Positions 1,073 through 7,695 of a stretch of 13,036 nucleotides of DNA are shown here, piece by piece. Made by a program: the position numbers and the translations under genes. How positions within the stretch are numbered: the first letter of the stretch is position 1; each line of letters begins with the position of its first letter. The notes under the pieces are model-generated. The model worked only from the letters and a program-made list of their open reading frames with translations. It was not told the origin of the DNA and ran no database searches. The DNA comes from Desulfobacterales bacterium. Its GTDB lineage: Bacteria; Desulfobacterota; Desulfobacteria; Desulfobacterales; Desulfobacteraceae. The DNA is taken from NCBI GenBank assembly GCA_022361535.1, contig JAKSAU010000293.1, positions 1-13,036 on the forward strand, written 5' to 3'.

Positions 1073-2266
1073 TTATTCTACAATTTCACCAACAACGCCG
1101 GCGCCGACAGTGCGGCCGCCTTCACGGATAGCAAAACGAAGTTCTTTTTCCATTGCGATGGGGTTGATCAGCTCAACGTTAATGGTGGCATTGTCACCAG
1201 GCATGATCATTTCAACGCCTTCTTCCAGAGTCAGAACACCTGTAATATCAGTAGTTCTGAAGAAAAACTGAGGCCTATAACCGCTAAAGAACGGAGTATG
1301 ACGACCACCTTCTTCTTTACTCAGGGCATACATTTCAGCTTTAAACTTGGTGTGGGGATTAATGGAACCGGGTTTACAACAAACCTGACCACGTTCCACC
1401 TGATCACGCTTGGTACCGCGCAGCAGCAGGCCAACATTGTCCCCAGCCTGACCTTCGTCGAGAAGCTTTCTAAACATTTCAACGCCGGTACAAACTGTTT
1501 TCTGAGTTTCTCTGATACCAACGATTTCAATTTCTTCACCAGTCTTAATGATACCACGCTCGATACGACCGGTAACAACGGTACCACGACCTGAGATAGA
1601 GAAAACGTCTTCGATAGGCATCAAGAATGGCTTATCAGTATCTCTTTCGGGCTCATCAACATAAGTGTCAAGCGTTTCAAGCAACTCAAAAATAGGAGCA
1701 GCTTCATCAGCATCAACGTCATCACATTCAAGAGCCTTGAGAGCAGAACCACGGATAATCGGAGTATCGTCGCCAGGGAACTCATAAGTATCGAGAAGCT
1801 CCTGAAGCTCCATTTCTACCAACTCGATAAGCTCTTCGTCATCAACCATGTCACATTTATTCAGGAAAACAACGATCTTGGGCACACCAACCTGACGGGC
1901 AAGCAGAATATGCTCACGAGTCTGAGGCATGGGGCCATCATCAGCGGAAACAACGAGAACCGCGCCGTCCATCTGGGCAGCACCAGTAATCATATTCTTG
2001 ATATAGTCAGCATGGCCCGGGCAGTCAACGTGGGCATAATGACGATTTTCTGTCTCATATTCAACATGGGCGGTAGCAATAGTAATACCACGTTCTCTTT
2101 CTTCGGGCGCCTTGTCGATTTCATCAAAGGGAACAAAGTCGGCGTTGCCTTTCATACCAGCAAGCTTAGTGATTGCTGCGGTCAGAGTGGTCTTCCCATG
2201 GTCAATATGACCGATCGTGCCGATGTTCACATGCGGTTTAGTCCGCTCAAATTTCTCCTTAGCCAT
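1073..2266 (-). CDS. tuf: elongation factor Tu
   Basis: EF-Tu (397 aa) is the GTPase that carries aminoacyl-tRNA to the ribosomal A site. The G domain is intact: G1 GHIDHGKT (19-26), switch I with RGIT (59-62), G3 DCPGH (81-85) with catalytic H85, G4 NKCD (136-139), G5 SAL (174-176). Domain 2 begins near 215 with [18 protein letters not shown] (218-234). Domain 3 contains [21 protein letters not shown] (320-340) and ends in [15 protein letters not shown]. Length is as in the family. ATG start with a clear AGGAGG. It follows rpsG directly and lies 15 nt before rpsJ, so it appears to link the str and S10 clusters in one transcript. Whether a second tuf copy exists elsewhere cannot be seen. Confidence 0.98.
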
Positions 2267-2313
2267 CTTCTGTATTCCTCCTGTGGAATGTTTTCAAAGA
2301 TTTTTCAAACTAT
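2267..2313 (-). other. rpsG-tuf spacer, position where fusA usually lies
   Basis: This 47-nt gap ends in the Shine-Dalgarno AGGAGG (2277-2282), 10 nt before the tuf ATG. In the common rpsL-rpsG-fusA-tuf order, EF-G (about 690 codons) would lie here. No remnant of an EF-G reading frame is visible. Confidence 0.8.
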
Positions 2314-2781
2314 TTACCACCGAAAATGGGCAAATGCCTTGTTGGCTTCTGCCATCTTGTGCGTATCTTCTTTCTTCTTAATCGCCCCACCACGTTCATT
2401 GTAAGCGTCGAGCAATTCGGCTGCCAATTTATTGGCATATCCTTTTTCAGACCTGCTACGGCTGTAGCTGATCAACCATCTAAAGGCAAGCGCAGTCTGA
2501 CGACTCGGCTTGATATCAGTGGGCACTTGGTAGGTGGACCCGCCGATTCTTCTGGATTTCACCTCTACAGAAGGTCTGATATTGTCGATTGCTTTCTTGA
2601 ACACGTCCAGAGCAGGCTCACCAACTCTTTCTTCGGCGATCATCAATGCATTGGTTACCACTTTTCGAGCGGCATTCTTTTTACCGTCCTTCATAACACA
2701 GTTGACAAACTTAGCTGCAAGCTTCTCTTGCTGTGTGGCATCCTGCATGAAATTTTCTTTAATTATTAACTTTTCTGCCAT
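2314..2781 (-). CDS. rpsG: 30S ribosomal protein S7, divergent N-terminus
   Basis: S7 (155 aa) nucleates folding of the 3' major domain of 16S rRNA and lines the tRNA exit side of the head. Family blocks: LAAKFVNCVMKDGKKNAA (21-38), PSVEVKSRRIGGSTYQVP (70-87), a central ALAFRWLISYSRSR helix, and the C-terminal KKKEDTHKMAEANKAFAHFRW. The first 20 residues (MAEKLIIKENFMQDATQQEK) differ from the usual MPRRR-type basic tail, with only three lysines and several acids. An in-frame stop lies upstream and no better start exists. ATG at 2781 with GGTGG 9 nt before it. M12 is an alternative start but would shorten the protein. It lies 53 nt after rpsL and 47 nt before tuf. In E. coli S7 represses the str operon; no such site is recognised here. 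Confidence 0.95.
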   Translation of the reverse strand: MAEKLIIKENFMQDATQQEKLAAKFVNCVMKDGKKNAARKVVTNALMIAEERVGEPALDVFKKAIDNIRPSVEVKSRRIGGSTYQVPTDIKPSRQTALAFRWLISYSRSRSEKGYANKLAAELLDAYNERGGAIKKKEDTHKMAEANKAFAHFRW

Positions 2782-3312: not shown

Positions 3313-6300
3313 CTAAACCTCGGTAAATTCACCATACTCTACTTCGATGTCGTTGTAACCAGGAAAGCCTGTCCCAGCAGGGATCAAACGCCCCATCACG
3401 ACATTTTCCTTTAGACCTTTCAGGCTATCGTACTTGCCTTCGATGGCTGCAAGGGTTAGCACCTTGGTAGTTTCCTGGAAGGATGCCGCGGAAAGGAAAC
3501 TGTCCGTAGACAAAGATGCTTTGGTAATACCAAGAATCAAAGGCTCACCTTTGGCAGGTTCGCCACCATTCATGGCGACTTCCCTGTTGGTCTCCTCAAA
3601 AAGGATACGGTCGACCTGCTCGTCGGGAATAAAGTTTGTATCTCCGGTAGAGATAACTTTTACACGACGCATCATCTGGCGGATGACCACCTCAATGTGC
3701 TTGTCGTTGATCCGTACACCCTGGAGCCGGTAAACCTCCTGGACCTCGTCAACCAGATATTTGGCCAGGGCCACTTCACCCATGATATTCATGATGTCCT
3801 GGGGATTGGCAGATCCGGCAATCAGCGGATCACCCGCTTTTACATAGTCGCCGTCATACACGGACACATGTTGCCCTTTGGGGATAGCATATTCTTTCTT
3901 CTCTCCCACATCAGACGGTGTCACGGTCACTTTCTGACGCCCCTTGGTACCTTTAGACACGGCAACGTAACCGTCGATTTCGGTTAGTACAGTGGGATCT
4001 TTTGGTTTTCTGACTTCGAACAACTCCGCAACCCTGGGCAGACCACCGGTAATATCTTTGGTTTTTGTAGTTGCACGGGGCAGCTTGGCGATAACATCAC
4101 CCGCCATGATCTGATCGTCTTCTTCAACGGTCAGAATGGCGTTGACCGGCAAGTAATACCGCGCAGGTGTTTTGGAATTTGGCAGCTTTACGGATTTGCC
4201 GTCGGTATCCTTGACAGTAATCCTTGGTCGAATATCAGCATCCTTGCCTTCAATAATTGTCCTAGACACCTTTCCGGTAACCGGGTCAATCTGTTCCTGT
4301 ACGGTATTACCGACCATAATATCAGCAAACCTTACCCTACCGGATACTTCGGTAATGATTGGCGTAGTAAACGGATCCCAAGAAGCAATGATATCACCCG
4401 GCTCAATCGTCTGACCATCTTTTACGTGAAGGGTGGCACCGTAAATTACGGTTTCTTTGGCGCGTTCACGCCCTTCTTCACCCACAATGGTCACACCGCC
4501 GCCTTTACGGTTCATGACAATAACTTCGCCCTCGGCAGAGGTTACGGTCTGGATATCTTCATTGTACTTGAGGATACCACCTACCCTGGCCTTGATCTCT
4601 GCGACCTCAACCTTTCGTGAAGCCGTACCACCGATATGGAAGGTACGCATGGTCAACTGAGTACCAGGCTCACCAATAGATTGGGCAGCCACAATACCGA
4701 TTGCCTGCCCGATCTCCACTGTAACGCCGTGGGCCAGATCACGTCCATAGCAGCGTGAGCAAACTCCGTGCTTGGAATTACATGTCAAAACCGATCTGAT
4801 TTTCACTTTTTGAACACCGGCCGCCTCAATTTGGGCAACGTGGGATTCGTCAAGCTCAGTATCCACACCAACGATGAACTCATCGGAATAAGGATCCCTG
4901 ATTTCTTCCTGTGTCACACGACCCAGAATTCTCTCACCCAGCGTCTGAATAATTTCTCCACCTTCATACAGGGCTTCAACTTCAATTCCGTTAATCGTAC
5001 CACAATCAACTTCCACAATTGTGCAGTCCTGCCCCACATCGGCAAGACGACGCGTCAGATAACCGGAGTTGGCTGTTTTCAGTGCCGTATCAGCTAGACC
5101 TTTACGGGCACCATGTGTAGAAATAAAGTACTGAAGAACAGAGAGCCCCTCACGGAAGCATGCAGTAATTGGGTTTTCGATGATCTCACCTGACGGCTTA
5201 GCCATCAAACCACGCATACCAGCCAACTGACGCATCTGATCTTTAGAACCACGGGCGCCGGAGTCGGCCATTACATAAACGGCGTTCAGTTCTTCTTTAT
5301 CTTCTTCACCTTCTTTTCTGGGGGGATTCTTCATGACTTCCATCATGGAATTGGCAATATCGTCTGTTGCCTGAGCCCAGATATCAACAACCTTATTGTA
5401 TTTTTCACCCTGAGTAATCAGACCTTCAGAGTACTGATTTTTTATGTCTTCAATGCTCTGTTCAGCCTTATTTATCATATCCCATTTGGTATCAGGAATG
5501 ATCATGTCATCCACACAAATGGACAGTCCACCCAAGGTGGAGTATTTGTATCCGATATCTTTTAGCCGGTCAGACAGGATAACGGTTTCTTTCAACCCGA
5601 TATTTCTGTAGGCATAGTCGATAAGCCTTACAATGGATCCCTTATCCATAAGCTTGTTTACCAGGGTAAAAGGCAGAGTTGAATTCCTTTCGTCAACCTT
5701 GAAGATGGTATACTTATCACCTACAACTCTGACATCGGTAAACTGACCTTCTTTCATTCCGTAAAGCTGTTCAACCACAACATCAGAAACCTGAAAAATG
5801 TTCTTAAACTCTTTACGTGTCAGAATACCTGTTTTACCACGGGTCTTTTTAATCTCATCATCACTGTACTTATCCAGAACCGCATCGAAATCTTCACCTG
5901 CTTTGAGGTCGGCAAGCGCAGCTTCAGCATCTTCCTGGGTTTCAGTTCTGATCCGGCTCATGTCTAACAGCACATCACCCGGAATTGTTTCCCAAAGCAA
6001 AATTCGACCGGTAGTGGTCTCATACATCTTGTCATCGATGCGCACCTTAATCTTGGCATGCAGATCAAGCTCACCAGCATCGAATGCATAGCGCACTTCT
6101 TCGATACCTGAGAAGGTAATACCCTCTCCGCGCTGGCTGGATACCGCACGCGTCATATAGTAGATACCCAGTACAATATCCTGGGTGGGTACAATAATTG
6201 GCTGCCCGTTAGCAGGAGACAAAATGTTGTTGGTAGAAAGCATCATGACCCGGGCTTCAAGCTGTGATTCCAGCGAAAGAGGCACATGAACGGCCATCTG

Positions 6301-7695
6301 GTCACCGTCAAAGTCAGCATTGAATGCAGGACAAACCAAAGGATGAAGCTGGATAGCTTTACCTTCGATAAGCACAGGCTCAAAAGCCTGGAATCCGAGA
6401 CGATGGAGGGTTGGCGCCCTGTTGAGCATCACCGGGTATTCTTTTACCACAGCTTCCAATGCATCCCAGACCTCAGTCTCTTCTCTTTCCACCATTTTCT
6501 TGGCGCTTTTTACTGTTGATACCAGTCCTTTTTGCTCTAAATAGTTGTAGATAAAGGGCTTAAACAACTCAAGAGCCATCTTTTTAGGAATACCGCACTG
6601 GTGAAGTCTCAATTCTGACCCAACGGTAATAACGGTACGGCCGGAATAATCCACACGTTTACCCAGCAGATTCTGACGGAACCTGCCCTGTTTACCTTTT
6701 AAGGTATCAGAAAGGGATTTGAGAGGCCGTTTGTTGGTTCCGGTAACAACTCTGCCATGGCGGCCGTTGTCAAAGAGCACGTCGACTGCTTCCTGAAGCA
6801 TCCGTTTTTCGTTCCGAACAATAATGTCCGGTGCATTCAGGTCAACCAATCTCTTTAAACGGTTATTCCGGTTGAGGACACGGCGGTAAAGATCGTTAAG
6901 GTCAGATGTAGCAAACCGACCGCCTTCAAGCGGTACCAATGGCCTGAGATCCGGTGGTAAAATAGGACATGCTGTCAGGATCATCCGAGCCGGCTCAATG
7001 CCTGAATTCAAAAAGGCATCTATTACTTTAAGCCGCTTGGCCATTTTCTGCTGCTTGGCCACAGACTTGGTCATGCCGATCTCTTCTTTGAGCTCATCAT
7101 GAACTTCCTGAAGATGAATCTCTTCAAGAAGAGTCAGGATAGCCTCTGCACCGATACCCGCATCAAACGCTTCGTCACCAAAGGTTTCAATGGCTTCGTA
7201 GTATTGATCATCTGACAACAGCTGCATTTTCTTCAAGCCGGTGTCTTTGGGATCAATCACGATATAAGAGTCAAAATAAAGGACCTTTTCCAAATTTTTA
7301 AGTGTCAGGTCCAAAACATTGCCGATCTTAGAAGGCAGACTTTTCAGGAACCAGATATGGGAGACCGGAGAGGCAAGCTCGATATGAGCCATTCTCTCAC
7401 GTCTTACCTTGGACTGGATAACCTCAACCCCACACTTCTCGCAGACAACCCCACGGTGCTTCATGCGTTTGTATTTTCCGCAGTTACACTCGTAATCCTT
7501 TGTCGGACCAAACACCTTGGCACAGAACAGACCGTCACGTTCGGGCTTGAATGTTCTGTAGTTAATGGTCTCAGGCTTTTTTATTTCGCCGTGGGACCAT
7601 TCCCGGATCTGGTCGGAAGATGCCAGGCTAATCTGAACGCCCTGGTAAATCTTAGGATCTTTGGGTTTTGCGAAGAAATCATAAATATTGTCCAA
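3313..7695 (-). CDS. rpoC: DNA-directed RNA polymerase subunit beta' with an extra domain
   Basis: Beta' (1460 aa) supplies the catalytic Mg site and most of the clamp, bridge helix and trigger loop. Visible in order: N-terminal zinc site C70, C72, C85, C88; [14 protein letters not shown] (421-434); catalytic [12 protein letters not shown] with D461, D463, D465 (459-470); pore domain; rim-helix region (about 736-790); MADSGARGS (809-817) leading to the bridge region; second zinc site C898, C972, C979, C982; trigger-loop start [12 protein letters not shown] (1012-1023), then an SI3-type insert (about 1027-1214) as in Proteobacteria, then [13 protein letters not shown] (1215-1227). The C-terminus stops soon after [12 protein letters not shown] and lacks the E. 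coli tail. Residues about 574-673 are an extra block with no E. coli counterpart, described separately. Start is TTG (7695), chosen for its Shine-Dalgarno and for alignment with MDNIYDFF-type N-termini. Followed 106 nt later by rpsL. Confidence 0.98.
5677..5976 (-). other. parvulin/PpiC-like domain inserted in the beta' pore domain
   Basis: In-frame segment of rpoC encoding about residues 574-673. E. coli beta' runs directly from GRALLWMIVPKG to LPYSIVNQ. Here [11 protein letters not shown] (563-573) and LPFTLVNK (674-681) are separated by about 100 residues. Residue offsets to E. coli agree: about -12 just before the block and +87 just after it, placing the junction near E. coli residue 585-587. 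The inserted sequence follows the parvulin order: strand MSRIRTET, helix [14 protein letters not shown], then [26 protein letters not shown], the helix before [11 protein letters not shown], and the last strand [10 protein letters not shown]. PpiC-type domains show the pattern HILVK, DF..LAKK.S, GGDLG.F, GYHIIKV. The two usual histidine positions are R581 and T663 here, so isomerase activity is doubtful. The homology call is from pattern recognition, not a profile search. Confidence 0.75.

Follow-up and report, generated by a model that had tools for sequence, protein, structure and literature searches.

Few machines in life are as conserved as the core of RNA polymerase. Ess1/Pin1, a separate parvulin, acts on the phosphorylated Rpb1 tail of RNA polymerase II, and in the periplasmic chaperones SurA and PpiD there are parvulin domains without activity, in which the parvulin fold is used for binding and not for catalysis. 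Within the polymerase itself, excerpts of PMC2939025 describe large blocks restricted to single lineages between conserved parts of beta', such as beta'i6 of E. coli and beta'i2 of Thermus, both of them sandwich-barrel hybrid motifs. The beta' subunit encoded in the window studied here (the whole stretch of 13,036 nucleotides, contig JAKSAU010000293.1 of the Desulfobacterales bacterium assembly GCA_022361535.1) likewise has one large lineage-specific block; however, this block reads as a parvulin and lies at another site. The beta' inserts of known fold cited so far are sandwich-barrel hybrids, whereas here the pore domain appears to contain the domain of a folding enzyme. Like Ess1/Pin1, it would be a parvulin on a transcription machine, but as part of the catalytic subunit, and it differs from free parvulins in being embedded in RNA polymerase and, in the clade of the window, in lacking both signature histidines. 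With the inactive SurA and PpiD domains it may share the use of the parvulin fold for binding, although the insert itself belongs to RNA polymerase. No description of a parvulin insert in beta' was found in the open-access literature, where an earlier listing in surveys of beta' inserts is possible; the class of insert is known, and a parvulin fold at this beta' site appears to be new.

The minus strand of the window encodes rplJ, rplL, rpoB, rpoC, rpsL, rpsG, tuf, rpsJ and rplC, with rpoC identified by family match and the other gene names read from the translations of open frames. No tRNA was found in the window, nor any RNA family at gathering score. The rpsG and tuf genes are about 48 bases apart (window 2266-2314) without fusA between them, and they are similarly close at every locus of L001-L036 where both were matched, which suggests that fusA has moved away in the family of the window. 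The features that frame the insert are the following.

3313..7695, minus strand: rpoC, RNA polymerase beta', 1460 aa with a TTG start (TIGR02386, 1728.6 bits)
6301..6321, minus strand: active-site NADFDGD motif, RpoC residues 459-465 (read from the sequence)
5503..6228, minus strand: pore domain RNA_pol_Rpb1_3 (PF04983, Pfam), RpoC residues 490-731, split by the insert
5677..5973, minus strand: predicted parvulin insert, RpoC residues 575-673, 99 residues (alignment with E. coli K-12 RpoC)
5326..5490, minus strand: RpoC residues 736-790, aligned to E. coli 649-703, the rim helices (alignment with E. coli K-12 RpoC)

In this alignment the insert is the single large extra block of the pore domain relative to E. 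coli, starting after window residue 574 (E. coli G586) and followed by L674 (E. coli L587), and it is in frame within an open rpoC frame. A first-pass annotation made from the letters of the DNA had described about 100 extra residues that split the beta' pore domain between flanks contiguous in E. coli, and this description is borne out by a 99-residue in-frame block inside PF04983, bracketed by G586 and L587. The coordinates proposed then, 5677..5976, were right at the start and one codon off at the end, which the alignment places at 5973, and the position given as just before the rim helices holds only roughly, as the block ends about 60 residues ahead of them in sequence, with E. coli beta' 649-703 being what we take to be the limits of these helices. 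The position of E. coli K615 follows some 28 residues after the insert; together with I619, D622 and Y626, K615 is presumably one of the ppGpp site 1 residues of beta'. The first three of these are conserved in the window as K702, I706 and D709. Residue 713 (window 5557-5559) is D in the window, at the position of Y626 in E. coli.

The assignment to parvulins rests on family profiles, the first of which was matched in the whole protein:

5668..5952, minus strand: Rotamase_2 match (PF13145, Pfam), RpoC residues 582-676

In the untrimmed RpoC of the window this match reaches 28.7 bits, where the cut-off is 27, with an E-value of 2.5e-6. On its own, the block also passes the Pfam cut-offs of PF00639 (29.3 bits vs 21.7) and PF13616 (23.4 vs 22.5). 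Because the margin of the window's own copy over the Pfam cut-off is small, its relatives matter for the identification. In another member of the order (P0061), RpoC scores 43.2 bits with PF00639, for which the cut-off is 21.7 (E 8e-11), and in a diverse alignment of 11 inserts PF13145 was matched in all 11 members and both PF00639 and PF13616 in 10 of 11. Compared with the PDB, the profile of these 11 inserts finds PrsA (2.5e-11, the best match), a PpiC-type protein (6.4e-9) and SurA (7.5e-7), and in all 24 distinct sequences at E <=0.01. Parvulin-type names are given to 23 of the 24, including PpiD, NIMA-interacting 4 and, weakly (E 0.0013), ESS1 next to PrsA, PpiC and SurA, and the remaining one is named basic membrane protein. 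As a single sequence, the window insert finds PDB entries weakly, with a best E-value of 0.003. NCBIfam PRK10788, presumably PpiD, matches the isolated insert at 1.8e-4, with 20.3 bits against a cut-off of 493.

Curated cut-offs and profile matches identify the roughly 99 residues inserted in the beta' pore domain as a parvulin domain of PpiC/SurA type, in the same family as the PpiC/SurA/PrsA-type parvulins (PF00639, PF13145, PF13616) and in line with the rotamase identity proposed in the first-pass annotation; we infer its parvulin fold from the sequence. Most of the length of the insert profile is also matched by secreted-type parvulin domains from this phylum, and in the alignment the insert has six or seven more residues than two of these domains after the pocket phenylalanine. 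There are 76 solved RNA polymerase sequences that match this region, and among the 60 of them listed the best matching stretch never goes past about the first six residues of the insert.

The insert is encoded at 36 loci on 36 contigs (one genome per species), two of them in the strain-titled records of Desulfobacter vibrioformis DSM 8776 and D. latus AcRS2, a recurrence that speaks against an assembly error. The titles of the 36 loci include Desulfobacter, Desulfotignum, Desulfobacula and Desulfobacterium, unspecific labels and one Gammaproteobacteria. For the order to which Desulfobacter vibrioformis belongs (here Desulfobacterales, after its named members), 126 genomes were searched with the insert and its flanks together. 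The site was matched in 115 of them, with the insert present in 107 of the 115 (three of them matched in two pieces) and absent in eight. A search with the insert only matched 218 of 291 order genomes. When 20 of its 73 misses were searched with the flanked query, nine were found to span the insert, one is split at contig ends, four are without the insert and six were unmatched, and four further weak hits of the insert-only search all span the insert with the flanked query.

The comparison of the RpoC site was extended to Desulfobacterota by a phylum sample of 138 genomes, of which 132 were matched and five span the insert, all five from the same order. For the remaining 127, the top match is confined to the downstream flank; the site was aligned directly in 25 of them and has no insert residue there (empty site). 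The class sample consists of approximately the same genomes as the order sample and thus gives no independent boundary. A wider spread in the phylum was looked for and not seen: among the matches listed (E-values up to about 2.6e-10), those in frames of at least 1,100 aa come from 16 genomes, all of the order sample. The evidence from outside the phylum consists of the scan of the genome collection with an alignment of close relatives and of three protein searches, which rely on shared 5-residue words. The search with the window insert gave 59 proteins at E <=0.01, all with RNA polymerase domains, and those with two divergent members gave 25 and 18 proteins, including a named Desulfosalsimonas sp.; P0087, in the set of 25, is the sole match without RNA polymerase domains. 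Where these searches give organism names, they are Desulfobacterota or unspecific labels, and nothing was found in a plasmid search for the insert. Three RpoC-type proteins of 846-890 aa (P0104, P0105 and P0106) have the source name 'peptidylprolyl isomerase', apparently due to the parvulin domain. Such names on partial RpoC fragments of the order mean that the domain is visible to annotation, and they are also a naming trap.

Trees of RpoC were built without the insert columns, with split supports read from unrooted trees, and 14 of 120 sequences were left out of the first tree as duplicates or too short. The split of the insert bearers (with the non-bearers nested among them) from the rest has supports of 0.999 and 1.0 in two trees, and the non-bearer side consists of other members of the phylum and of order genomes with a simple empty site (L086 and L087; also L204). 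Support is poor for the branching order of the deepest bearers. Nested among the bearers, in three places, are five genomes of the order that lack the domain. The first is L201, which pairs with L092 at a support of 1.0 and keeps the boundary residues of both sides with the domain between them absent, a clean in-frame excision in this lineage. The second is the group of L084, L202 and L203 (support 0.998), with a remnant of its own, and the third is L085, also with its own remnant, which joins the bearers L079 and L082 at 0.921. From the split of the bearers and the three nested places, about one gain and at least three losses are counted, and the tree supports vertical descent of the domain after it entered at, or close to, the base of the order. 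The closely paired L201 (L201:1-3301) and L092, without and with the domain, could serve as a natural comparison pair.

When the parvulin domains themselves are placed in a tree, the 92 inserts form a group with a support of 0.982 that includes a single secreted-type domain (L188) and excludes the 32 other parvulin domains from the phylum, and by branch length the nearest secreted-type domain is L183 for 90 of the 92 inserts. No donor is named, as the donor comparison is small (33 domains from 20 stretches).

For the active-site positions, 130 unique inserts were obtained from 148 fragments after merging identical copies and dropping L132, L161, L163, L168 and L171, whose frame or site was unrecognised. 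The clade of the window has 46 unique copies, set by locus number (L001-L053, L063 and the window), and it forms one clade with a support of 1.0; the other 84 copies are outside. Three codons of the window correspond to the following positions.

5953..5955, minus strand: codon of R581, at the first parvulin histidine (R in 46 of 46 copies inside the clade, H in 67 of 84 outside)
5707..5709, minus strand: codon of T663, at the second parvulin histidine (T in 40 and N in 6 of the 46 inside, H in 72 of 84 outside)
5794..5796, minus strand: codon of F634, at the prolyl-pocket phenylalanine (F in 46 of 46 inside, 73 of 84 outside)

We take these to be equivalent to H59, H157 and F134 of Pin1, respectively. 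Outside the clade, 62 of the 84 copies have both signature histidines and 7 have neither, in a set where higher-scoring, window-like copies are over-represented because 60 extra order stretches came from near the top of the 218 matches. Inside the clade, neither histidine is present in any of the 46 copies. At the same time, T626, K628, F630 and N632 are found in 46 of 46, R627 in 45 and K631 in 41. Taken as a set, the pocket positions show no significant excess of conservation over the other insert positions (p 0.08 inside the clade and 0.056 outside).

The insert is kept under purifying selection, including in the clade of the window. Median dN/dS is 0.079 for the insert and 0.061 for the flanks over 183 pairs of moderate synonymous divergence, which are non-independent and come from loci mostly of the window's clade. 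Insert dN/dS is below 0.2 in 23 of 26 listed pairs, two of which repeat another pair as some loci in the dN/dS and divergence sets are the same genome under two ids; the three higher values are 0.52, 0.59 and 1.13, the last for the pair L093-L075. At 70-95% flank identity, the insert diverges in amino acids 1.75 to 2.21 times as much as its flanks within the clade and 2.50 to 3.20 times as much in the copies outside; in the closest bin the factors are 4.3 and 5.7. With low dN/dS and a lower relative divergence in the clade, the histidine-free copies are unlike decaying ones and are, if anything, more constrained than the others.

The loss of both histidines under retained constraint in the clade of the window favours binding over catalysis, and here it is tentatively proposed, as the reading to which we lean with less than even confidence, that the domain is a peptide-binding dock, gained about once, possibly catalytic in many relatives and non-catalytic in the family of the window. 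The insert would bind a stretch of another protein that contains proline, on the side of RNA polymerase where the pore domain lies, and candidate partners are a secondary-channel factor, another RNA polymerase subunit or some other protein. In most of the order the domain may still isomerise the bound prolyl bond, and in the window's family it would bind without catalysis and serve as a dock. Counted against a dock are the weak constraint in three of the 26 pairs, a pocket whose conservation does not clearly exceed that of the other insert positions, and the lineages without the domain, at least three, in which it is evidently not needed. The first-pass annotation had suggested a docking surface for a transcription factor or for the nascent-chain machinery. 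A docking role is compatible with the histidine loss under retained constraint, and a link to the nascent-chain machinery finds no support, as the beta' pore domain is on the secondary-channel side, away from the RNA exit.

Published work gives some context for such a module. DksA, which binds in the secondary channel, was reported to show prolyl isomerase activity in an excerpt of PMC7461557, and its homologue TraR contacts the rim helices at the channel entrance, according to an excerpt of PMC6970531. From these two reports, a module near the channel could bind or tune such factors. In extracts of PMC7353009, RpoB, RpoC and RpoA are among the proteins that aggregate in E. coli without six cytoplasmic prolyl isomerases, and beta and beta' co-purify with PpiB, and less with its R43A variant.

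It is also conceivable, although somewhat unlikely, that the domain is a passenger, a lineage-specific surface insert with no partner, tolerated since its loop faces outward, which persists mainly because in-frame loss is rare and a misfolded insert would be harmful to beta'. Large beta' inserts not shared across species are indeed known (in the excerpts of PMC2939025), the insert evolves faster than its flanks and it was lost independently at least three times. However, a median insert dN/dS of 0.079 and the fixed or nearly fixed T626, K628, N632 and R627, at what is assumed to be the surface, count against a passenger, and so does the presence of the domain in 107 of 115 genomes when it can be cleanly excised, as in L201.

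A built-in folding helper, which would isomerise or chaperone beta' or beta during folding or assembly, acting in cis before synthesis of the C-terminal half of beta' is complete, is considered unlikely. The aggregation of the three subunits and the co-purification with PpiB, as given in the extracts of PMC7353009, make it conceivable where the histidines are kept, as they are in the majority of the sampled copies outside the window's clade (62 of 84); nevertheless, they are lost throughout that clade (0 of 46) with the domain still constrained, and the lineages without the domain retain a long rpoC frame.

A bolder reading, which we regard as speculative and probably wrong, is that the RNA polymerase of this whole order has a built-in prolyl isomerase whose target is a proline switch, either of a transcription factor or of the polymerase. 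This isomerase would be a fused bacterial counterpart of the parvulins of RNA polymerase II, and in the Desulfobacter family it would have become a non-catalytic receptor with a new binding specificity.

Direct regulation of the secondary channel is quite improbable. Here the domain would partly cover the channel or the region of ppGpp site 1 and tune NTP entry, the access of Gre factors and DksA or the response to ppGpp, as its place in the pore domain shortly before the K615 position and the isomerase activity reported for DksA, a secondary-channel factor (PMC7461557, in part), might suggest; sequence distance, however, is no guide to contact in three dimensions, and DksA is a different protein with a different fold.

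Finally, chance resemblance or an assembly or frame artefact, to which the bare 28.7 bits of the window copy and its weak single-sequence PDB matches could point, is ruled out with near certainty by relatives scoring 43.2 bits against a cut-off of 21.7, by the match of the insert profile to PrsA at 2.5e-11 and by the recurrence of the block at 36 loci of the genome collection and in 107 of 115 order genomes.

With roughly one gain, retention in about nine of ten order genomes, loss of the histidines in one family and excision elsewhere, the domain amounts to an experiment set up by nature. Members that have both histidines, neither of them or no domain at all can be compared for what a chaperone fold does on a polymerase. 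The order-wide distribution, the approximately single gain, the mostly intact histidines elsewhere and the several losses go beyond what the first reading of the DNA had offered.

Some single copies have features of their own. Enlarged inserts of approximately 124-126 residues are found in the order members L205 and L206, and L063, also from the order, has a long serine- and lysine-containing stretch in the insert. One rpoC with the insert, inside the clade of the window, comes from a record titled Gammaproteobacteria bacterium isolate Bse_11 (L025:1-6473); its nearest neighbours are L022 (Desulfobacula) and L033, and from this placement the assembly is probably misbinned or mislabelled.
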